NCBI RefSeq assembly: GCF_052324685.1
Contig: NW_027506873.1
Span: 1,374,001 to 1,438,000 of the forward strand
Direction of reading: 5' to 3'
Length of the DNA stretch: 64,000 nucleotides
DNA from: Brachyhypopomus gauderio
Taxonomy: Eukaryota; Chordata; Actinopteri; Gymnotiformes; Hypopomidae
Numbering within the stretch: position 1 is the first letter of the stretch; every line of letters begins with the position of its first letter. The notes below the pieces were generated by a model. The model had not been told where the DNA came from, searched no databases, and saw nothing but the letters and a program-made list of their open reading frames with translations. This document shows positions 8,474-63,851 of the stretch, one piece after another. Made by a program: the position numbers and the translations under genes.

Positions 8474-11400
8474 CTATACCTCCTGACATTCTTGTCTGTT
8501 GGGCCACATATTCTCATCCACATCACAACGCATATCTTCCCTTGCAATGCAGCGTGGAAATAATCTTTTGGAACGTCTAATCCAGCCTCTGCAAGCTTCT
8601 ACTGTGATGTCATCACATGCTGCATCCATGGCAGCCAGCAGAGCCATCCGAGTATGAGGCTGCCGATCGTAAACCTTCCACCTCCATGCGGAGAAGAACT
8701 CCTCATTTGGGTTCAGGAATGGGGAATAGGGTGGGAGAAATAGCATCAGCACCCTGTTATGGGTTGCAAACCATTGCCTGATGATGTTTGAATGATGGAA
8801 TCTCACTATGTCCCAAATTACCACATAATTTGTTACATAATTTGTAAATCTGGAGCCTTTTCATGGTCATTTAGAGCCATATACCCATCTGGGATGAGAT
8901 CCCTGTAGAGTGTATCTATGAATGTGACGAGATGCTGTGTGTTGTATGGCCCTAAAGTGGGAATATGAGTTAGTACACCCAATTCTGGAATGGCTGCACA
9001 CATAGTGATGTTCCCTCCTCGTTGGCCAGGTACATCAACGGTGGCTCTGTGTCCAATAATATTTCGACCACGTCTTCTGCCTTTTGTCAGGTTGAAGCCA
9101 GCCTCATCCACGTATATGAATTGATGAGTTTGCTCACTTGATTCCAGCTCCATTATACTTTACATTTCAGAAGTTACAAAAACAAAATAAAGTTATAATC
9201 TTACAGGAACAGAATTCACTGAAGATCACATCAAATGTACATGTTAGTCAAATTTACTGTCATTACACAATTTACATCATTACACAAGGAACTATTTACT
9301 GAAATGGGTAGTTACTGTATGATGATTTACCTGCACAGAGAAGCTGCTTCACTCTGTCACCATTCCTTTCAAATGGTACATGATACAACTGTTTCATTCT
9401 CATCTGGTTTCTTCTAAGCACTCTGTCAATAGTTGAGATGCTTACTGACTGTATGTTTACAAAGATGTCATGGTTGTCTATAATGGATCTCCCTAAGTCT
9501 AATAGCATTATTAGCTATGACAATTTCACAGATGGCATCCTCCTGCTGAGGTGTAAAAAGGGGACCTCTGCCACCCCTGTGAGGTAGCCCTGCAGACCTG
9601 TGTGGTACACAAGTAGTAAGGCAAACACAAGACTGAGTTGAGTATACTTTTAGAAAATATGTAAAATTGTAATATGAAGTGTTAGTGTGTACTGTAAACA
9701 TAAAAGTATTACATTATAGAGTTATTTGGATTACCCACCTGTTCTCTCTACGAAAAGTTTGGATTATTGAGGACACGGTTGATCTCCCAACATTTGGCTG
9801 CACCCTTCGGCCAGCTTCAGCCATTGTTAGGCCATGATTGACAACATGGTCTATAAGTGTGGCCCTTATTTCATCTGCAACATGTCTATGTCCATGGCCT
9901 CTTCTACCTCTCCCTCTGTTATACCTCCTTACTCCCCTTCCACACACTCTTACTGCTCTTACTCCCCTTCCACGCACTCTTACTGCTCTTACTCCCCTTC
10001 CACGCACTCTTACTGCTCTTACTCCCCTTCCACGCACTCTTACTGCTCTTACTCCCCTTCCACGCACTCTTACTGCTCTTACTCCCCTTCCACTCACTCC
10101 TACTGCTCTTACTCCCCTTCCACACACTCTTACTGCTCTTACTCCCCTTCCACGCACTCTTACTGCTCTTACTCCCCTTCCACGCACTCTTACTGCTCTT
10201 ACTCCCCTTCCACGCACTCTTACTGCTCTTACTCCCCTTCCACGCACTCTTACTGCTCTTACTCCCCTTCCACGCACTCTTACTGCTCTTACTCCCCTTC
10301 CACGCACTCTTACTGCTCTTACTCCCCTTCCACGCACTCTTACTGCTCTTACTCCCCTTCCACGCACTCTTACTGCTCTTACTCCCCTTCCACGCACTCT
10401 TACTGCTCTTACTCCCCTTCCACGCACTCTTACTGCTCTTACTCCCCTTCCACGCACTCTTACTGCTCTTACTCCCCTTCCACGCACTCTTACTGCTCTT
10501 ACTCCCCTTTCACGCACTCTTACTGCTCTTATTCCCCTTCCACACTCTTACTGCTCTTACTCCCCTTCTACACACTCTTACTGCTCTTACTCCCCTTCCA
10601 CACACTCTTACTGCTCTTACTCCCCTTCTACACACTCTTACTGCTCTTACTCCCCTTCCACACACTCTTACTGCTCTTACTCCCCTTCCACGCACTCTTA
10701 CTGCTCTTACTCCCCTTCCACACACTCTTACTGCTCATACTCCCCTTCCACACACTCTTACTGCTCTTACTCCCCTTCCACACACTCTTACTGCTCTTAC
10801 TCCCCTTCCACTCACTCCTACTGCTCTTACTCCCCTTCCACACACTCTTACTGCTCTTACTCCCCTTCCACACACTCTTACTGCTCATACTCCCCTTCCA
10901 CGCACTCTTACTGCTCTTACTCCCCTTCCACACACTCTTACTGCTCTTATTCCCCTTCCACACTCTTACTGCTCTTACTCCCCTTCCACGCACTCTTACT
11001 GCTCTTACTCCCCTTCCACACACTCTTACTGCTCATACTCCCCTTCCACGCACTCTTACTGCTCTTACTCCCCTTCCACACACTCTTACTGCTCTTATTC
11101 CCCTTCCACACTCTTACTGCTCTTACTCCCCTTCTACACACTCTTACTGCTCTTATTCCCCTTCCACACACTCTTACTGCTCTTATTCCCCTTCCACGCA
11201 CTCTTACTGCTCTTACTCCCCTTCCACGCACTCTTACTGCTCTTACTCCCCTTCCACGCACTCTTACTGCTCTTACTCCCCTTCCACGCACTCTTACTGC
11301 TCTTACTCCCCTTCCACGCACTCTTACTGCTCTTACTCCCCTTCCACACACTCTTACTGCTCATACTCCCCTTCCACGCACTCTTACTGCTCATACTCCC

Positions 11401-12041
11401 CTTCCACGCACTCTTACTGCTCTTATTCCCCTTCCACACACTCTTACTGCTCTTACTCCCCTTCCACGCACTCTTACTGCTCTTATTCCCCTTCCACGCA
11501 CTCTTACTGCTCTTACTCCCCTTCCACGCACTCTTACTGCTCTTACTCCCCTTCCACGCACTCTTACTGCTCTTACTCCCCTTCCACGCACTCTTACTGC
11601 TCTTACTCCCCTTCCACGCACTCTTACTGCTCTTACTCCCCTTCCACGCACTCTTACTGCTCTTACTCCCCTTCCACGCACTCTTACTGCTCTTACTCCC
11701 CTTCCACGCACTCCTACTGCTCTTACTCCCCTTCCACGCACTCTTACTGCTCTTACTCCCCTTCCACGCACTCTTACTGCTCTTACTCCCCTTCCACGCA
11801 CTCTTACTGCTCTTACTCCCCTTCCACGCACTCTTACTGCTCTTACTCCCCTTCCACACACTCTTACTGCTCTTACTCCCCTTCCACGCACTCTTACTGC
11901 TCTTACTTCCCTTCCACGCACTCTTACTGCTCTTACTCCCCTTCCACACACTCTTACTGCTCTTACTCCCCTTCCACACACTCCTACTGCTCTTCTTACT
12001 TCTGGCTGTTGATCCTGGTCATTTCTTTGTGGATCTTCCAT
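8474..12041 (-). pseudogene. IS630/Tc1-superfamily DDE transposase gene with expanded Arg/Gly N-terminus, broken
   Basis: Minus-strand, intron-containing transposase of a family I recognise as common in fish genomes. Exon 1 runs from ATG at 12041 (MEDPQRNDQDQQPEVRR), through a huge RGRGVRAVRV decapeptide array (about 9935-11995), then a helix-turn-helix: ADEIRATLIDHVVNHGLTMA, ..GRSTVSSIIQTFRRENR, donor AG/GTGGGT at 9739. Exon 2 starts at 9597 (HRGGRGPLFTPQQEDAICEI) and includes a second HTH (SISTIDRVLRRNQMRMKQLY), with a donor at 9331. Exon 3 starts near 9157. It holds the first catalytic Asp (YVDEAGFNLTKGRRRGRNI), the second (VIWDIVRFHHS) and the Glu (PPYSPFLNPNEEFFSAWRWK), then CIAREDMRCDVDENMWP, ending at 8474. 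Frame breaks occur near 9485 (after LREI) and near 8840-8860 (before NYVVIWD). TGA codons and 28-bp units also interrupt the repeat. The D-D-E triad is visible but the gene is not translatable as it stands. Confidence 0.8.
9930..11995. repeat. 30-bp minisatellite, about 68 units, inside transposase coding sequence
   Basis: Plus-strand unit is CTTACTCCCCTTCCAC plus GCACTCTTACTGCT (30 bp). On the minus strand it reads RGRGVRAVRV in the frame of the transposase start and of the downstream HTH; the second frame reads WKGSKSSKSA. Common variants are GCACTC/ACACTC and CTTACT/CTTATT. Variant CTCATACT (five or so units, e.g. near 10735, 10885, 11033, 11364, 11394) creates TGA in the coding frame. Three units of 28 bp (near 10535, 10955, 11105) each shift the frame by -2 and total -6, so the frames at the two ends of the array agree. 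The variant units recur in blocks, indicating higher-order duplication. Confidence 0.9.
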
Positions 12042-23900: not shown

Positions 23901-26900
23901 CTATATAATATAATTCAGAACCAGATTTGTAAGAACACTGAAGGCCTGCTTGCATGAGGACTGGACTGGATAGCACTTGAAATATGAAAACAATGAAAAA
24001 ACCTATTCGAATTTAATGTGACCACCCAGGACTTCATTTGGTCAGGTATGTCCCAGTGAAATGGATGGCAGGCAAATCTTGGAATATGAATGAATCAAAA
24101 TATTAGCATTTAAATTAATGATTTGGTTGGATTGACTTTTCAAAATAAAAGCTGACCCCTTTGTCTTCTGTGACTCCAAATGCCCCTCCTTTCTTGGCTA
24201 TCTGTAAAAAATATTTTGCAACTCTTTCCGTGCTTCAAAAGGAACAACGTAGCATGCACTTGCAGTTGTGGAAAAACAGGAACTCTGACAGAACAGTAAC
24301 ACTGAAGTGGAACTAGAGGTGTTTATGCACAACAAATAACACTAGCTTTAAAAAGATAGGTGTTCATGGACGTGTATGGTCTGGAGGGTGTGAATGAAAG
24401 AAAATAATAACAATAATAATAAGTTTCTCTCTACTTGTAAACTTACCAGCCCGAGAACAAAACCCAAACCCAATAACATACCTTTTCACTCACTCGCAAA
24501 ATCATGGCCCCTACGATGCATCCTAGTCCGAACCCAATGAGGATGTACTGTGCATACTCCATCACCATAGGCAATGTCACCAGGTTCATACGAAACATAT
24601 TGAGCATAGGACCATCAATGTTGCCCCTCTGGGAAAGAGGAAAGATTAAGACATGCCACGGACATCTGCATGAATGCACGAGTAAAGAAAGTAATTACAC
24701 TTGTTTCCTAAGATATATTATTCACCATATGGGTTTACAACCAAAGACAAATCAGCTAGACAAAATAATGATAAGATCATTTATATTTTAGGGTAATCTA
24801 ATTATTTTCTTCATGAAAACAATGCGACTTACCTCTTCAAACCAAATCATTGGCATAACCACTTCAGCTATATTGCCAGTTTCCCTAAAAAAAAAGTTGC
24901 TGAGTTCAGTACAGTAAAGCTAACTCACTAAAGGTCAGCATTCAGATTAAAGCTAACTCACTAAAAGTCAGCATTCAGAAATGTCCCCTACAACTCAGGC
25001 TAATGACCAATGTCAGATTAAAGTCAATTCACTAATGGTCAGCATTCAGAGCTGTCCCACACAGCATCATGACCAATGTCAGATTAAAGCTAACTCACTA
25101 AAGGTCAGCTTTCAGATTAAAGCTAACTCACTAAAGGTCAGCTTTCAGAGCTGTCACCTATGACGCCTAATGAACAATGACAGATTAAAGACAAATGCTG
25201 TGAATGTGAACAGAAGCAGCACAGCGCACTGGGATGGCGTACTTACGTTATTCCTGGTACTTGTTTTATGAACAGGCTAAGCTGAAGCTTGACGGACACA
25301 TTCATGGGTATACCGGTTTCCTATGAAACAAGAACACCATTGCATTGAAAGACATGAAGTACATGCTCTGTAAGTACAAGTTTGGGCTAGGTTGGAAGGC
25401 CCTCCCTGTCTCGCAATGTTGTGGTAGCCAATCAGGTGCCTGCTAGCCCATGTGATGGACCTGTTGGTTGGTTCTCTCCAAAAAAAAAAAAAAAAAAAGC
25501 TAATTCCAAAAGCTAGTATGAAGTTCACTGGGTTAAATTCCAAATATAAAACTTCAACCAAGATGCTGTCAGAGTCAGGGGTTAGTGCCGAAACCCTGAT
25601 TGAGACAAACAATATAATGTTTTGTAAAATATAAGACAACAGGAGTAGAAACTACTTAGTTGGTAAACTACTGACAAAGATTTATGTCCTAAAGGCCTTC
25701 CAATACTACATCACACTTTGCACTACGGATGATGGTAAAATAAAGGCTTTACTTGTTATATATAAACCTCAGAACTTAACTGAAGGGAACTGTTGAAATG
25801 TTTTTCCAGGTTTGCTTTGGGTGAACAAGAGTATTAGTTTCATGATTAAAGAAACTAAGCCCATATTTACAAAAGTTATATCAATGCCCAATGCTTCATT
25901 CAAACTTGATTATACAAGAGTATATGGGTTATTAACTGCAAAGCCTTGTTAATGTACATGCCCAGGCATATGTATAAAACAGTCAAAGTTTTTCTATTGA
26001 GGATTAATTAATAAAGGCTGTCATCTTACAAGTAAATCCTTCACAAATATAATCTAACATATGCAGGCAAATAATGAAACATGCATGAGCAGGACAAGGT
26101 CTAATTCACGATTACACAATTTGCTGTGATCCAGTTTAGTCATGAGGAGCTGTGTTCTCTCTGCTAATGACAACTCAGACATTATCTTATCACATTATTA
26201 TCTGTGGCAAAAGGCTGTTTGAGTCAGCCATGGACTATGAGGTATACAACAGTCAAGTCACTGCAAAATGCTGAAATATCATGCCAGCCAATAATAAGTC
26301 ATACTGGAATGAAAATGCATTAAAATTCCTAAAAAATCTGATCATAACATGTGGGTCTACTACTTTTAATGATATTGCACGATGCAGTGAATAACTATAA
26401 TATTACGTTTAATCACTTATAGAGACAAGATTTAGAATATTTATTTACCTGATTCAACAGATTGGAATCAGAAGCTAAGAGAGCAAAGTTTACAAGATTA
26501 CTCAGTCCGATCAGAATGGTCAATCCTCAGAATACTCAGTGTGTTTATTATAATGGGCCTGTGCTTTTGAGGGAACAAAAACAACGCATGAAGGATATGA
26601 TAACCTCAATTATAGCACATTGCTTAAGGCAACTTTCAATTAGTTTATCAGATGCCCCTATTGTTCAGGCAGTTAACTGTAAAACATTAACAATACATTA
26701 TGGATTCAAAGTAAGCCTAACTCACAGGCATCACAAAAAAAATCTATATTTTCAGTCTCCACAGTTTGGTCAATAAAACAATAAGAAGGAGTTGTTGAAC
26801 CAACGTCAGCAATTTAAAGTTGAATTTTATGGGATGTTAATAGAACCAATTTAGATAACAGCTTTTATGGCCAGATTTAAAGATAAAGCACTTAAGAGTT

Positions 26901-29900
26901 AAGATTTCTTAAGTCATAACTCCACTTGAGAGAACCTTGAGTGAAACGGCTTTAGAAGCCAATATCCTTAATCACATGAATGCTCAAGGGACAACTTACT
27001 GACACCTCAGAATATGCATTTTCCCAAATCAAACAGACCACCTCTTCTAAATGATTAATCTCCCCCTTACTAAGAAGCAGTAGCTACAATATGTTGTTGA
27101 ATCACCATGTGAAATAAGCCCCTTTCAAGCCTGTTGAGTCCCATAAACTCAGAGGAGAACATCTAGTTCTTGTAACTCTGCCAGGATGCAGCTCTGACTG
27201 CTGCACAGTGATGTAAACAGTGAGGGAGGCTACTGTCCTTCCTTCCTCTGTGGACAAACGACTGCTTGCAGGGTAGCTGGGATTTGAAGTTTTTAACAGA
27301 TTGCATCTCAAAGCTTACGGTGCAATCTCCAGTAGCAGTATTATTTTTGCTGGTTATAAGACTTAATAAAAAATAAGAGGACATTGTTTCTCCAAATGTT
27401 CATGGAGAGCATTCATATGTGTGGTTTGTGTACATCTTGTGTGTGTGTTGTTCTTACTGGATGTATGTCAATAAAGAGTCCATGGGCTTCCTCATTAGGG
27501 CTCAGTCCATTCACAGTGTCTAGCAAGGCTGGGTCAGCATTGTAGAAGTGGGGGTGGGAGAGGAACACAGGTGTTTCTGGAAGGAACATCACAAATGTCT
27601 GACATTTAGTCTTGAAGATTTCTAAAGCCACATACCATTAAACAGTAATTGACAGTAGACTATATATAAAACAGCCGCTGAAGGTGCCTCAAGATATGCT
27701 AAGTGCAGCAACAACTTCTCAGCTTGATTGGGAATTTGATGCTTTTTTGCCAATTTAGTGATGAACTATAGTGCTGCTCTGTTGATAAATATACAAAGAA
27801 GGTCCAATGTTAGACACAGAAACTAGAAACTGAGCTCAACATTTTGAGTGCAAAGGGTTTACCCTTCAGAGGCCGAATCAGAATGTGGCTTTGGTTCAAT
27901 GTGGCTGTGTAGAGCCGGGCATCTACTGTTCTGTCTGTGCATAATGTAAGGGGTAAGTAGGAAGACACTCACTGTGCCTGCAGCTGCTGACATTAAGAAG
28001 CCCAGACTGTCTGCAGGGACAGAAGCCTTCGTTTGGATGGTAATCAGAGCCATTGGCAAAGAGGGTCTTTGGGGCCACAAAGTGAAACACAGGGATTCCA
28101 CTCACTATCCCTGGCCTCTCGAACACAAGCTCCATTGACCTGAAAAACATCATGGCTGTCAATTCTCCATAAAAAGATGCTTTTCCAATGTCTCAATTTT
28201 ATAAGGGATGGCTTCACAAATCAGGAGAATTTTCCAACAAACTTATACCCAATACCTACAAACTTGATTTATCCAGTTTTACCTCCTGAATTTAGTTAGG
28301 TTAAACAAATGTGGCAAGTAACACACTGTAACAATGACATGCCTGGGCATTTTTATGTGTAGTGTTTAACCCTGCAGGGTCTCTGCATGGAGACGGTACC
28401 TGCAGGCGTCTGGACTGTAAAATGGGAGGGTGGATTCTGTAGTCATGAATGGGGGCCACATCTGACCTGCTGTCCCATTGATCATGTTACACTGGTCAGA
28501 ATTCCAGTACGTCACCTGATACATTACAAAAAACGAAAACGCTATTTGATTGGTTGTCAATTGATTGTAAATTGACTAAATGAAACAGAGCTTATGATCT
28601 TGTGAAAATGTTGCTGTTAGACTGCACTTGGATCTCACATTCTGCATGCCATTCCAAGAGTCAACTCTGTGAACTTTCCTGATGTCATCTTGGCCAGTGA
28701 AGACGGTGAACAGTCCAGTGTTGGAGTTGTTAAACTGTAATCGGACAAAGATAAAAGCTCTAAGATAAAAGATTATCTCACTACATGATCTAAAATGTGT
28801 AAAATGGAAGTCTAAACTACACTGCTCAAAAAAAGTAAGGGAACACTTAAACAACACAATGTAACTCCAAGTCAACAACACTTCTGTGAAACCAACCTGG
28901 GGTGAGTTTCCCGAAACGTTCGTAGCGCTAAGTACTTCGTAACCTCGGACGTTTCATATGAGGTTACAAAGTACTTAGCGCAACGAACGTTTCGGGAAAC
29001 CCACCCCTGTTCAGTAAGTAAGCAACATTGATTGTGAATCAATTTCACCTGCTGTTATGCAAACGGAACAGACAATAGGTAGAAATGAGAGGCAATTAAC
29101 AAGACACCCCCTATAAAGGAGTGGTTCTGCAGGTGGAGACCACAGACCTTTTCTCTGTTCTCATCCTTTCTGGCTGATGTTTTGGTCACTTTGGTATTTT
29201 GTCAGTTCCCTCACCATAGAGGGAGCATGATGCTGTGTCTACAACCCACAGAAGTTGCTCAGGTAGTGCAGCTCATCCAGTATGGCACATCAATGTGAGC
29301 TGCAGCAAGAAGGTTGCTGTGTCTGTCAGCAGTGTGCAGAGCATGGAGCAGCACACCAGGAGACATGGACGGGGCTGTAGGAGGGCAACAACCCTGAAGC
29401 AGGACCACCAGCTCCTCTTTTGTGCAAGGAGGAACAGGAGGAACAGTGCCAGAGCCCTCCAGCAGGCCACTAATATCCATGTTTCTGCTCAAACTGTCAG
29501 AAACAGACTCCACGAGGGCTGAATGAGGACCCGACATCCACATGTGGGACTTGTGCTTACAGCCCAACACCGTGAAAGGCGATTGGCATTTGCCAGAGGA
29601 CAACAAGATTGGTAGATTCGCCATTGGTGCCCTGTGCTCTTCATGGATGAGATCAGGTTCACACTGAGCACATGACAGAGTCTGGAGACGCTGTGGAGAA
29701 CGTTCTGCTGCCTGCAACATCCTCCAGCATGACCGGTTTGTGGGTCAGTAATGGTGTGGGGAGGCATTTCTTTGGAGGCCCGCACAGACCTCCATGTGTG
29801 AGCCAGAGGTAGCCTGACTGCCATTAGGTACCGAGATGAGATCCTCAGACCCATTGTGAGACCATATGCTGGTGCAGTGGGCCCTGGGTTCCTTCTGATG

Positions 29901-32900
29901 CATGACAATGCTAGGCCTCATGTGGCCTTGTGTGTCACCAGTTCCTGCATGATGAAGGCATTGATGCTATGGACTGGCCTGCCCGTTCCCCAGACCTGAA
30001 TCCAGTCGAGCACATCTGGGACATCATCCTCCAACGCCACGTTATACCACAGACTGTCCAGGAGTTGACTGACGCTTTAATCCAGGACTGGGAAGAGATT
30101 CCTCAGAACATCCACTGCCTCATCAGGAGCATGTCCAGGTGTTGTAGGGAGGTCTCATCAGGAGCATGCCCAGGTGTTGTAGGGAGGTCTCATCAGGAGC
30201 ATGCCCAGGTGTTGTAGGGAGGTCTCATCAGGAGCATGCCCAGGTGTTGTAGGGAGGTCATACAGGCACGTGGAGGCCACACACACTACTGAGTCTCATT
30301 TTAACTTGTCTTGAAGAATTTCCACTGAAGTTGAATCAGCCTGTCATTTGATTTTCCACTTTGATTTTGAATATGATTCCAAATCCAGACTTCCATGGGA
30401 TAATAATATTGATTTACATTGATAATTTTTGCAACGGATTCCACTTTGTAATAAATAAAGATTTTCAACTGGAATATTTTATTAATTGAGATCTAGTATG
30501 TTATTTTAGTGTTCCCTTTATTTTTTGAGCAGTATAATTTAAACTATATGAAAAAAGTTTACATGCCATTTAGTAAGTGATTACACAAGATGTTAGATTT
30601 GTAGCGACTGCTGTGAACACACAATTGTATCTTTACCAACCTCAGCAAACAGCCCAAACTTCCCTTTGACAGGCACCATGTCAGGAAAAAAAGTGGTGAG
30701 GAAGTCCACCAGCTTGCTGTCGTAGCCCCATAAGAGCTCTCCTACGGTTTTAGTCACAAACGGCCCCTCTTTGAACATTTTGAAGGTAGCGCTCATCATC
30801 ATACGCACTGCAGTCGGCATTTTCTCCATCATCACCGATGACCCCTAAAGCCAGCAGTCCAACAGGCATGAGGAAGAAACACCAGGGAATGAAACACTGC
30901 TAATTGATTACAGCTCTCAAATGTACATTCAAAACATCTGTCAGATGCTCCTTATGCAGAATAACTTACATATTTGCTACTATGGCAGTACAGGTACTCT
31001 TGTCAGTAATCGTACATGTACTTCTAACCTCTGTGTTGTTTGCTCTACGTGCTCTGCTAGATGTGCTTCAGCAGCTTGGAGATGTCAGTTGGCATAGAAC
31101 ATGCCAAACAGTCCAATTCAGATTTTAATTATTGACAGCCACTCAATTTTTGGGTGTGAAGCCACTCAACATTTGGGTGTGAAGTGTTATTAAAAAATGT
31201 TTCACACTACACTTTCACCACCTTTGAACAGCAGACAAAAGGTAATTTAAAATGTCTTACCAGCACTAACATGTTTGGGATGGTGACTACATCAGACTCA
31301 CTGCCTGCAGACATACTCTCCTCAAAGAAATACTGACGATATTCAAGAAATGACACCGTGTTGTTGGCATGGAACGTGATATTGTCTTTCAAACGTTTCT
31401 CACTGAAATAAAGCAAACCAAGAACTGGACTTAAAAAAAGACTTGGTGGCTTTAAGATCCATCACCTTGCATAACCTGCCTTTGCTTCAAAACAGCCAGC
31501 TTTAACATCTGCACATAAAACACAGCTCAGCATTTGCATAAAAATGTCACAGTGAGGCACGTGTTTGAAATTCCTAAAGATTGCAAAAACAACACACTGT
31601 TTGAGATGAACTGTGAAAAGGGGCTTCCTCAAATGTAGATCACATGTCTGTTATACAAACCAGAAAACCACAATTGAGATGTAAGAAAGAAGCTATGGAT
31701 ATATCCTTGAAAATATCTTGGTGCTCTGAGGATCTCCACCACAGGTGAAACAGGCGAATTCACTTTCAATATTTGTTTCAGTATAACTAAATAAATATCT
31801 AAAAATGTAATATGTAATCAGAACCCTGGAAGCTGTATTTTAAAATGTGCGTATGGCAATGACAACCCAAACTTTCTATATCATCAAAGTGTTTGTCACA
31901 TTCTGGATTATTTACTAAAGCACTATTCCATCACTTGCAATTACAATCCACACTTTCATTTACAATCCATTCACGTCCTTCCCCAGTGTCTAGCAAACAA
32001 TTACATTTCCTCTAATGCTCTTTGTAAAGCAGTGTCCTACCTAAAGGTAGGGGCTGAGTTTTTGACCTGAACTACAAGACGGATTTGATGCAGATATCTA
32101 CATAGACATCCATAGATATATGCAGACATATATATTTAAAGGTCATTTCCTGTTATCCCAAATATCCCTGCAGTGGGATATCCTGCTAGTACAATACTGT
32201 TTGATTGTAGTCTGTAATGAGATGGTCTTGTGGAATAAGAGTTTGACAGTTTATCATGAAGTATTACAATGCCAGATGCCAAATACTTAACATCCATATT
32301 ATAATATGGAATAATAATGCATACGGAAAGTGGTTATAAATTACTTGAGATGGAGAGAGAGAGAAAGAGAGAGAGAGAGAGATATCTTGTGAGCTTGTCA
32401 TCCATGGATATGTAGCTTTGTCTGCTCTGAACATATTGTCCCATATGGTTTCACTCAGGATGAAATTAGGTTGAAGCCGTAGAACCCGGTTTATGGTCAC
32501 AATTGGGCCTAATAACTGTGTGAAAGGAATGTCATTGGAAAGAAATGACTAAAAATAAACATCTTATGAACATGAATATGTATCAATAGAGTGATTATTG
32601 GGTTTTAGGGTGGGGGGAGGATTTGTGATATTTGTGAGGAAAAAAATTTACATCTTTAGATTTCTTTCTCAATTAAATTAGAATGTGTAAATATAATAAT
32701 ATAATAGAATAATAAGTCTACATTGGGAAAACCATTTAAATAAAATTTCTTCTTTTGGGGGCAACCATAGCACCACGGACGTAATTTTGGGGGGGGACGG
32801 GGGGGACGTCCCCCCCACTTTTTCAAAAGCCGGCTTTGGTCCCCCCCAGTTTTTACGGTTAAAACCAAATATTTAAATAGCGACGAATCTATGTCCACCC

Positions 32901-34460
32901 CACTTTTGAAATCAAAATTACATCCATGCATAGCACTTATGGTTGACAGCAAACTTCAAAAGCAAAATAACTTCAAAGTTCTTTCTTGTTCCACAGTGCT
33001 ATGATGACGCATCTATCATAATCTAATGATAGATTATGCCCAGACAGGTTAAATTAGAAGAAGAATGCTTAGTTAAGTCAACACAGACACAAGTACAGGC
33101 AAAGAAAGTAATAAATGAGATTTGCTTAGTACTTTCCCACATCTGTGTGAGTAGACAACAATGAACACACCCACAGAGGGAACTTGGGTTTAAGAATAAT
33201 GACTAGAGCTATAGGACACAAATAGCAATTAATATCATTACTATTAATATCATTAAATAGCAATTAAGATAGAATATAAATTCATTGTGAAATACATATT
33301 TTAATTTTTTTATATAAACAATGCTGGTGTACCTCGTACCCAACATGCACACACTGCTCTACGTATTATGTATGCACTGACAAAAAGTTGCCAAGTTGGC
33401 AATAAAATCATTTATAAGACAAAAATGATAATGATGCATTCCTGTATACACAAACCCATGACAGAACAGGTATCAGGGTACCTTACTTCAGAACAATGCT
33501 TCACAGCAGCGATGATGAACGCAATGCTACACACCTGTACACATAAGATGATGAACGCAATGCTACACACCTGTACACATAAGATGATGAACGCAATGCT
33601 ACACACCTGTACACATAAGATGATGAACGCAATGCTACACACCTGTACACATAGGGACCTCGTTGCTCAACCATGGGCTTCTCTCCCGCCAAAATCTCAT
33701 TAGGGTTTAGGACGTTGAATAAGTATATGCTCATGAAAAATGGTACAGGAATGTCCTTCCACATGGTATAGAAGAGCTCATTTTGGGGGTTTATCTGTGT
33801 ATTCTGTGAAACAATTAAGCAATGAAAGACAGACAATGTACAGATAAAGAAGAAACTGCATTTATTTATTTAAAGAAAGCAATAGCCTGGCTATATATTT
33901 TTGTTGCATTTCATATTTGATACGTTACCGCAGTGACTAAATGCAAGATGAATGTTTCTACAATGGCCAAATTACAACCAACAAATATAAATGACAGTCG
34001 GAATAGTTGATATAATTTGCACCAGTTGTCTTCAATTCCTAATTAGGCTTTCGCTTGCATCACGAAAGAGGTCTTAATAGTTTAAAATAATTGAAAATAA
34101 TTATATAGGAACAGATATTATAATAATAGCCGTATAATTCATTTTATTTACTTATAATAATAATAATAATAATTCTATAAAGGTAAATAAAATATGTTTG
34201 ATTTCCCAAAGTGACGCCTCTTGTGTCGTAGTTTTTTTAATCCAGGCTTCAAATACTTGTAAAGTGTAAAGTAAGCTACGAAAAAGTGATCCTGCTGGTT
34301 GGTGTCCAAGGATCCTTCCAACCTTTAGCAACCAACCTACCTTTACTATTTGTTCGTCGATAACAACTGGTCCCACGAATACGAGAACAGTCCCGAAAAC
34401 AAGCGTCAAAATCCCCACGATTAAAAGTCCAATTGCTATTTTAGACTTTACTATCGCCAT
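20850..34460 (-). CDS. scarb1: Scavenger receptor class B member 1, complete gene (12 coding exons)
   Basis: CD36-family membrane receptor for HDL and other lipoproteins, mediating selective cholesteryl-ester and lipid uptake at the plasma membrane. Coding exons (minus): 34341-34460, 33643-33803, 31261-31402, 30641-30844, 28639-28734, 28400-28515, 27973-28139, 27458-27576, 25247-25320, 24833-24884, 24482-24628, 20850-20945. They total 1494 bp: 497 residues plus stop, all in phase. Internal exon lengths 142, 204, 96, 116, 167, 119, 74, 52 and 147 equal those I recall for mammalian SCARB1. Residues ~7-33 form the N-terminal membrane helix. The ectodomain has [58 protein letters not shown] and [12 protein letters not shown]. 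The C-terminal helix is [20 protein letters not shown]. The tail, in an exon 3.5 kb away, ends LLKDVSD and lacks the mammalian EAKL ending. The exon 4 donor is the weaker GTTGGT. Several N-glycosylation sequons are present. Intron 2 has a multiplied donor and intron 4 holds a Tc1 element. Confidence 0.95.
20946..24481 (-). other. scarb1: scarb1 last intron (3.5 kb)
   Basis: No further exon recognised. Contents: a poly-C tract with AAGCTACGCCACTG (hAT-like end, ~21060-21095), AT-rich DNA, an A-run near 22985 and the SINE at 23490-23790. Confidence 0.6.
23490..23790 (+). mobile_element. DANA-like tRNA-derived SINE (degenerate)
   Basis: Order of motifs matches the zebrafish DANA-type SINE: GTTAGCATGTGTGCCTC, then GTGTTCTCCTTGTGG, TTTCCTCCCATAGTCCAAAA, and GAGTATGTGTGAATGA. 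The tRNA B-box is decayed. It lies inside the last scarb1 intron. Confidence 0.6.
24915..25165 (+). repeat. Imperfect tandem repeat in scarb1 intron 9
   Basis: Five to six copies of AGATTAAAGCTAACTCAC followed by TAAAGGTCAGCATTCAG, with variable spacers. It lies between scarb1 coding exons 9 and 10. Plus-strand open frames across it are artefacts. Confidence 0.7.
25321..27457 (-). other. scarb1: scarb1 intron 8 (2.1 kb)
   Basis: An A18 tract near 25480 and AT-rich DNA. Short open frames near 26462-26776 show no recognisable domain. Nothing else could be supported. Confidence 0.5.
28898..29009. mobile_element. Palindromic MITE (copy 2), nested in Tc1 element
   Basis: GGGGTGAGTTTCCCGAAACG at the left pairs with CGTTTCGGGAAACCCACCCC at the right, with AGCGCTAAGTACTTCGTAAC in the arm. 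It is better preserved than the copy at 163-248 and is absent from the expected Tc1 sequence at this point, so it inserted after the Tc1 element. Confidence 0.75.
29230..30290 (+). pseudogene. Tc1-like (DD34E) transposase, frameshifted
   Basis: Plus-strand pieces in order: [40 protein letters not shown] and LHEG (HTH region), [23 protein letters not shown] (first Asp), [27 protein letters not shown] (second Asp), then [18 protein letters not shown] (Glu) and [20 protein letters not shown]. Stops or frame changes follow LHEG and lie on either side of the middle catalytic block, so it cannot make protein. The C-terminal end is tandemly amplified at 30119-30260. Confidence 0.85.
30119..30260 (+). 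repeat. 35-bp tandem repeat (4 copies) within the transposase 3' end
   Basis: Unit CTCATCAGGAGCATGCCCAG plus GTGTTGTAGGGAGGT, repeated four times. It corresponds to transposase residues [12 protein letters not shown]. The 35-bp unit changes frame at each copy, consistent with drift after inactivation. Confidence 0.85.
31403..33642 (-). other. scarb1: scarb1 intron 2 (2.2 kb)
   Basis: Contains a short GA repeat (32350-32381), the hAT MITE at 32774-32928 and the donor-bearing 36-bp repeat next to exon 2. No other coding segment was supported. Confidence 0.6.
32774..32928. mobile_element. hAT MITE, 155 bp, with perfect 8-bp target-site duplication
   Basis: Ends CACGGACGTAATTTTG and CAAAATTACATCCATG (inverted). 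Direct flanks CATAGCAC at 32766-32773 and 32929-32936. Interior has GGGGGGACGTCCCCCCC. It lies in scarb1 intron 2. Confidence 0.8.
33511..33653 (-). repeat. scarb1: 36-bp tandem repeat containing the scarb1 exon-2 splice donor
   Basis: Four copies of the exon end plus donor, TATGTGTACAG/GTGTGTAG (minus strand), spaced exactly 36 bp. Potential exon ends are 33643, 33607, 33571 and 33535. Each extra unit would add [12 protein letters not shown] in frame, and stops appear only after the last copy. Confidence 0.85.

Positions 34461-38128: not shown

Positions 38129-39705
<1,577 letters not shown>

Positions 39706-45586: not shown

Positions 45587-63851
<18,265 letters not shown>

Follow-up and report, generated by a model that had tools for sequence, protein, structure and literature searches.

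Tandem repeats that carry splice signals

Dual-specific splice sites in tandem arrays have been described with UBC as the main case (Duan et al., PMC10809524, in the sections drawn on here). UBC and VCX3A resemble the scarb1 locus reported below in that both are tandem repeats with an AG|GT in every unit, from which whole units could be spliced out. The UBC repeat is coding, however, and its sites bound each ubiquitin monomer, whereas the scarb1 unit straddles an existing exon/intron border and its acceptor role is putative. As in UBC, each scarb1 unit offers an AG|GT within a plausible donor and acceptor context, as predicted with approximate matrices.

Tandem duplication also copies splice signals, as in scarb1, in the AGGT intron-gain model of Rogers, in the 24-bp repeats of fission yeast and in potato RdRp (PMC4974935). 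The potato duplication likewise spans the boundary between an exon and an intron, but the border is that of an acceptor and the outcome was a new intron. The fission-yeast units are short, multi-copy and of the AGGT type and, as in the Rogers model, it is exonic sequence that is duplicated. In scarb1, unlike these cases, a pre-existing donor was multiplied and no new intron is needed: the repeated segment straddles the exon 2/intron 2 border, whereas in the Rogers model an exonic segment supplies the two ends of the intron gained.

Tandem alternative 5′ splice sites share with scarb1 the pairing of several competent donors with one acceptor. Those treated in the relevant sections of PMC6783452 and PMC5585400 are donor pairs, many of them engineered in reporters, whereas the scarb1 array is natural and presents four donors at fixed spacing, with ten in a paralog. 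The 15-bp VNTR of MIR137 is a minisatellite linked to alternative donor use, as the scarb1 array may be, but its donors lie outside the repeat, while in scarb1 a donor sits inside every unit (PMC6692358, in the part used here). Our literature search, limited in reach, returned no minisatellite with a natural donor per unit at an exon end, and none in scarb1. Repeats, tandem donors and dual-specific arrays are already known; the novelty lies in finding them combined at several exon ends within a single genome.

The scarb1 gene and its four donors

We placed 11 scarb1 exons on the minus strand, from 34460 to 24482, in the window (the whole 64-kb stretch of DNA analysed). Placement relied on tblastn with an approximate human SCARB1 query, complemented by an exon-1 scan and by reading of the junctions. 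The features are as follows.

34341..34460, minus strand: exon 1, 40 aa; family likeness places the first transmembrane segment here
33643..33803, minus strand: exon 2, 161 nt if donor 1 is used; phase 2 at its end
33511..33653, minus strand: donor-spanning minisatellite, 36 bp x 4; per unit 11 nt of exon 2, 24 nt of intron 2 and one T
33637..33645, minus strand: donor 1, CAG|GTGTGT; gives the family-standard protein length
33601..33609, minus strand: donor 2, identical to donor 1; would add 12 aa
33565..33573, minus strand: donor 3, identical to donor 1; would add 24 aa
33529..33537, minus strand: donor 4, identical to donor 1; would add 36 aa
31261..31402, minus strand: exon 3, starts T-GAG-AAA; junction residue Ser
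24482..30844, minus strand: span of exons 4-11, from tblastn and junction reading
30844-30641, minus strand: exon 4
28734-28639, minus strand: exon 5
28515-28400, minus strand: exon 6
28139-27973, minus strand: exon 7
27576-27458, minus strand: exon 8
25320-25247, minus strand: exon 9
24884-24833, minus strand: exon 10
24628-24482, minus strand: exon 11, the last exon placed

The spliced protein matched the Pfam CD36 profile (PF01130) with E = 2.1e-158 over profile positions 1-462 of 463, and its PDB matches were LIMP-2, CD36 and SCARB1 chains. Together with tblastn, these matches bear out the original prediction that the gene is scarb1; judged by its sequence, with PF01130 covering nearly the whole protein, the locus is a genuine member of the CD36 / scavenger receptor class B family. 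The residue that follows GPYVY is Ser in scarb1, where exon 3 starts with T at window position 31402, and Arg in the LIMP-2 chains matched in PDB.

TRF reported the array at 33511-33653 with a period of 36, 4.0 copies and 100% matches, which makes it a head-to-tail repeat with a unit inside the 10-100 bp range of minisatellites. Read on the minus strand, the unit is TATGTGTACAG|GTGTGTAGCATTGCGTTCATCATC followed by one T, and the end of exon 2 is the initial 11 nt of the first unit. If the base before the array, the third base of a Pro codon CCC, was once T, the repeat would have comprised exactly four full units and a single synonymous change would have followed. The final exon bases for the four donors are 33643, 33607, 33571 and 33535, and the corresponding intron GTs begin at 33642, 33606, 33570 and 33534. 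With up to three mismatches allowed, the window contained four occurrences of a donor-centred 27-mer, all of them exact; none of 100 shuffles contained it. This search and TRF recovered the donor positions and 36-bp spacing originally proposed at the same coordinates. Across the full assembly (840 contigs, 796.5 Mb), the exact 36-mer was found only at the scarb1 site, with three full in-register matches, by a search that skips simple repeats and very common words. Viral contigs and phages yielded no relative. Genome size and gene order suggest a ray-finned fish as the host.

The four donors share the same 9-mer, which scored 9.37 with an approximate matrix, the fourth best among 11 scarb1 donor positions. 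Predicted RNA accessibility was nearly equal, and folding did not separate the donors over four stretch lengths, each having a mean unpaired value of 0.16-0.27. Exon 2 ends in TAC AG and exon 3 begins T GAG, so that all four good donor motifs join exon 3 in one phase; the frame is open across all four units, with a TGA shortly past donor 4, and inclusion of n units amounts to n x 12 residues. Reading of the junctions thus upheld the open frame and common phase that had been predicted, as well as the 12-residue insert for each extra unit. The junction itself differs in detail from what had been proposed: exon 3 starts with T and the codon is AG|T, so that the insert is followed by Ser.

The repeat itself is certainly beyond chance, and its overlap with a donor is not extraordinary: a 143-bp array placed randomly in scarb1 would overlap a donor in 14% of placements and any splice site in 26%. 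Near-perfect arrays numbered nine in the 64-kb window compared to 10 in 200 kb of sampled genome. Among other repeats in the window, a 30-bp x 69 array at 9928-11994 has long open stretches in several frames on both strands, and a 24-bp x 7.7 array at 60582-60766 begins about 20 nt past the apparent donor of a CUB-type exon, leaving that donor outside the array. A polyubiquitin gene at 38145-38818, with three near-identical 228-bp units, lies a few kb from scarb1.

Donor-spanning arrays at other exon ends

A genome search with scarb1 exons 2-3 found one paralog, a scarb2-like gene, which carries an array at the homologous border.

G000:C28, L026:1200-1530, minus strand: scarb2-like donor array at the corresponding end of exon 2; 33 bp x 10

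This array holds ten CAG|GTACG donors, and the frame is open in all ten units (VIQVGPYTYRY), three of which have TGC in place of TAC. Since both unit and breakpoints differ from those in scarb1, the two arrays most likely arose separately, as far as their sequences indicate. The introns of the scarb2-like gene are rich in arrays, one of which begins a few bases past the end of the exon-8 match. A family search yielded three further CD36-family loci, two of which (C3 and C77) carry one donor only at the corresponding place, so the exon-2 border is arrayed in two of the four CD36-family loci read; the remaining locus, a fifth family member (C28:118-144 kb), gave no exon-2 row in that search and lies outside those four. 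The idea of a family hotspot was rejected, as the single-copy border in C3 and C77 means that homology of the site is insufficient. The paralogs on C28 and C3 have Arg where scarb1 has Ser after GPYVY.

Beyond this family, donor motifs repeated three times at intervals were sought across the genome, and we sampled 41 clusters, taken in listing order as the first listed on some contigs and not as a random draw. The sample comprised all 17 CAGGTRAGT clusters listed, 17 of the 18 listed for AAGGTRAGT (one on C14 was dropped) and seven for CAGGTRYGT; 16 were listed for the last motif, one being the opposite strand of the L033 array, so that these seven came from 15 others. For each cluster, upstream frames that run up to the first exact donor were then scanned with Pfam, blind to period. 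Of the first 34 clusters, 24 gave frames of 20 aa or more, 36 in all, and 10 gave none; of the last seven, five gave frames of 18 aa or more, eight in all, and two gave none. For at least five of the 34 (L040, L052, L055, L059 and L064), the fetched stretch reached hardly past the array start and thus provided no exon test. Five of the 41 sampled clusters begin at a Pfam-supported exon end.

L033: Ldl_recept_a, E = 1.2e-11, period 45 bp; above the Pfam cut-off
L047: ubiquitin, E = 2e-5, period 30 bp; below the cut-off (24.7 vs 25.4 bits)
L058: Guanylate_cyc, E = 8.1e-4, period 46 bp; below the cut-off (19.5 vs 21.9 bits)
L061: Ank, E = 2e-9, period 29 bp; above the Pfam cut-off
L063: Synaptobrevin, E = 9.4e-7, period 46 bp; above the Pfam cut-off

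Although below the cut-off, the ubiquitin and guanylate cyclase matches end at the donor or no more than nine residues from it; a weaker match (L045, 0.026) was ignored. In all seven cases, that is, these five, scarb1 and the scarb2-like gene, the array consists of a 10-29 nt exon tail, the donor and intron, and in L033 the CAG|GT is not kept in every unit. The scarb1 array is one of a class that recurs in this genome, whose members start inside an exon, span the donor and enter the intron. One further array (G000:C1:16017327-16017459, minus strand) has a unit ending in a pyrimidine tract and CAG|GTGTGT, and by eye resembles a multiplied acceptor.

A preference of arrays for donor motifs was also sought genome-wide, and across three motifs the donor pattern was not consistently commoner than its reversed control. 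Counted as matches and not as arrays, motif and control gave 1141 vs 2863 for CAGGTRAGT, 237 vs 85 for AAGGTRAGT and 7120 vs 1254 for CAGGTRYGT, the last probably inflated by GT runs.

Frequent use of downstream donors should purge conserved genes of arrays with a period not divisible by three. Periods that are multiples of three were found in two of the five Pfam-supported arrays (one of the three above the cut-off), or in three of six with the scarb2-like array, where chance predicts 1/3; scarb1 was left out of the count because it had been chosen for its frame. The periods of these five to six exon-end arrays thus gave no sign of a frame filter, in small numbers, and frame preservation is not a rule for donor-spanning arrays in this genome. 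By eye, five exon-end arrays had at one point seemed all to be in frame, as if frame were a sign of selection; this idea was dropped after the period-blind Pfam scan, which added the guanylate cyclase (46 bp), ankyrin (29 bp) and synaptobrevin (46 bp) arrays. An exon end at L049 (12 bp), EGF-like by eye alone, was set aside as lacking Pfam support.

Choice among identical donors

We consider the scarb1 array to be a young donor-spanning minisatellite of which mainly the first donor is used, so that the extra units leave with the intron, perhaps with minor leaky isoforms; we put the probability of this reading at about two in three. Tandem duplication of a 36-bp segment straddling the exon 2/intron 2 border would have copied a working donor along with it. 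U1 would be able to pair equally with the four donors, and the upstream-most, being transcribed first, would dominate; the remaining units would normally be excised as the start of intron 2, giving the standard protein. Any leak to donors 2-4 would add 12, 24 or 36 residues without a frameshift, because the unit length is a multiple of three and the frame is open. In agreement with this order of preference, when both tandem donors were made equal in a human K562 reporter library, the first was predominantly used (PMC6783452, section 7, the part drawn on here), and the array periods, with no sign of a frame filter in their small numbers, also suggest that the first donor is normally used. In the out-of-frame arrays, most downstream donors would shift the frame, so that the first presumably dominates; donors n for which (n-1) is a multiple of three still keep the frame, which leaves first-donor use there probable and not forced. 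As described in the portion of PMC5585400 cited here, SRSF1 can favour the intron-proximal donor, which makes leakage possible and counts against the first-donor reading; by analogy, the intron-proximal donor in scarb1 would be donor 4. The extra donor copies are probably baggage that the gene tolerates rather than an established source of new proteins, and such tolerance would explain why the array persists.

Four identical donors in a single phase with an open frame could instead mean that several are used appreciably, giving SR-BI length isoforms with 12, 24 or 36 additional residues after GPYVY and a copy number that varies among individuals. The in-frame donor array at the homologous border of the scarb2-like paralog points the same way, as do the isoform ladders that tandem splice-site arrays can give in UBC (PMC10809524, in part). 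The scarb1 and scarb2-like arrays (36 and 33 bp) are indeed both in frame, as selection on leaky inclusion predicts, but two cases prove little, and openness is weak evidence because about 69% of 24-nt stretches of intron 2 are also open in the array's frame. We regard this possibility as unlikely, given the favouring of the first among equal tandem donors and the out-of-frame donor arrays that this genome carries at the ends of conserved-domain exons. The protein argues against it as well. Each inserted unit brings one Cys and is placed after the conserved GPYxY segment, and of the two forms scanned against Pfam CD36, the first-donor form matched in one stretch with 528 bits while the form with 36 additional residues scored 513.8 bits in two stretches. 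With the family match split and a Cys in each unit, it is doubtful that 12-36 extra residues after GPYVY would be harmless to the protein.

As the AG|GT units resemble dual-specific splice sites, removal of whole units is conceivable. Each AG|GT would then serve as donor and acceptor, pieces of 72 or 108 nt would be removed as exitrons or recursively, expansion would tend to be repaired, and every path would end in exon 2 plus 0-3 in-frame units. The layout is as in UBC and VCX3A (PMC10809524, sections used here). Acceptor scores of copies 2-4 (3.60, approximate matrices) fall within the range of the ten placed scarb1 acceptors, and by joint percentile these copies rank 1-3 among 453 AGGT sites on both strands of the window, although another site beats them by summed score; a branch-like TTCAT motif lies at -18. 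The matrices are approximations and the thresholds of the branch-motif scan were set from the array itself, and a 36-nt intron is very short for a vertebrate, so that we hold this reading to be improbable. Least probable of all is that the array is an artefact of assembly or an allele private to the sequenced animal, as the identity of all four copies in a single assembly might suggest. The 143-bp array is shorter than a typical long read, other arrays nearby were resolved, including one of 2 kb with 30-bp units, and the exact unit was found at one place (by the search that skips simple repeats and very common words). The scarb2-like array, in turn, carries internal TAC/TGC variants, as real arrays do.

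Arrays such as these, in which a real gene presents the spliceosome with four to ten near-identical donors at a fixed spacing, amount to natural experiments on its choice among equal sites, a question otherwise addressed with engineered pairs (PMC6783452 and PMC5585400, in the parts cited). Exclusive use of the first donor even among ten copies would be strong in vivo evidence for first-come selection; if several are used, the repeat would set receptor length. Rather unlikely, in our estimation, is a bolder version, in which two class-B paralogs independently gained in-frame donor minisatellites at the GPYxY exon-2 border, and stochastic donor choice or dual-specific unit removal turns them into allele-variable ladders of ectodomain length. 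Were it true, it would amount to a repeat-encoded, splicing-read length dial on lipid receptors. Whichever donors are used, the fact that these arrays recur where exons end suggests that genes can survive the growth of a minisatellite over a splice border.
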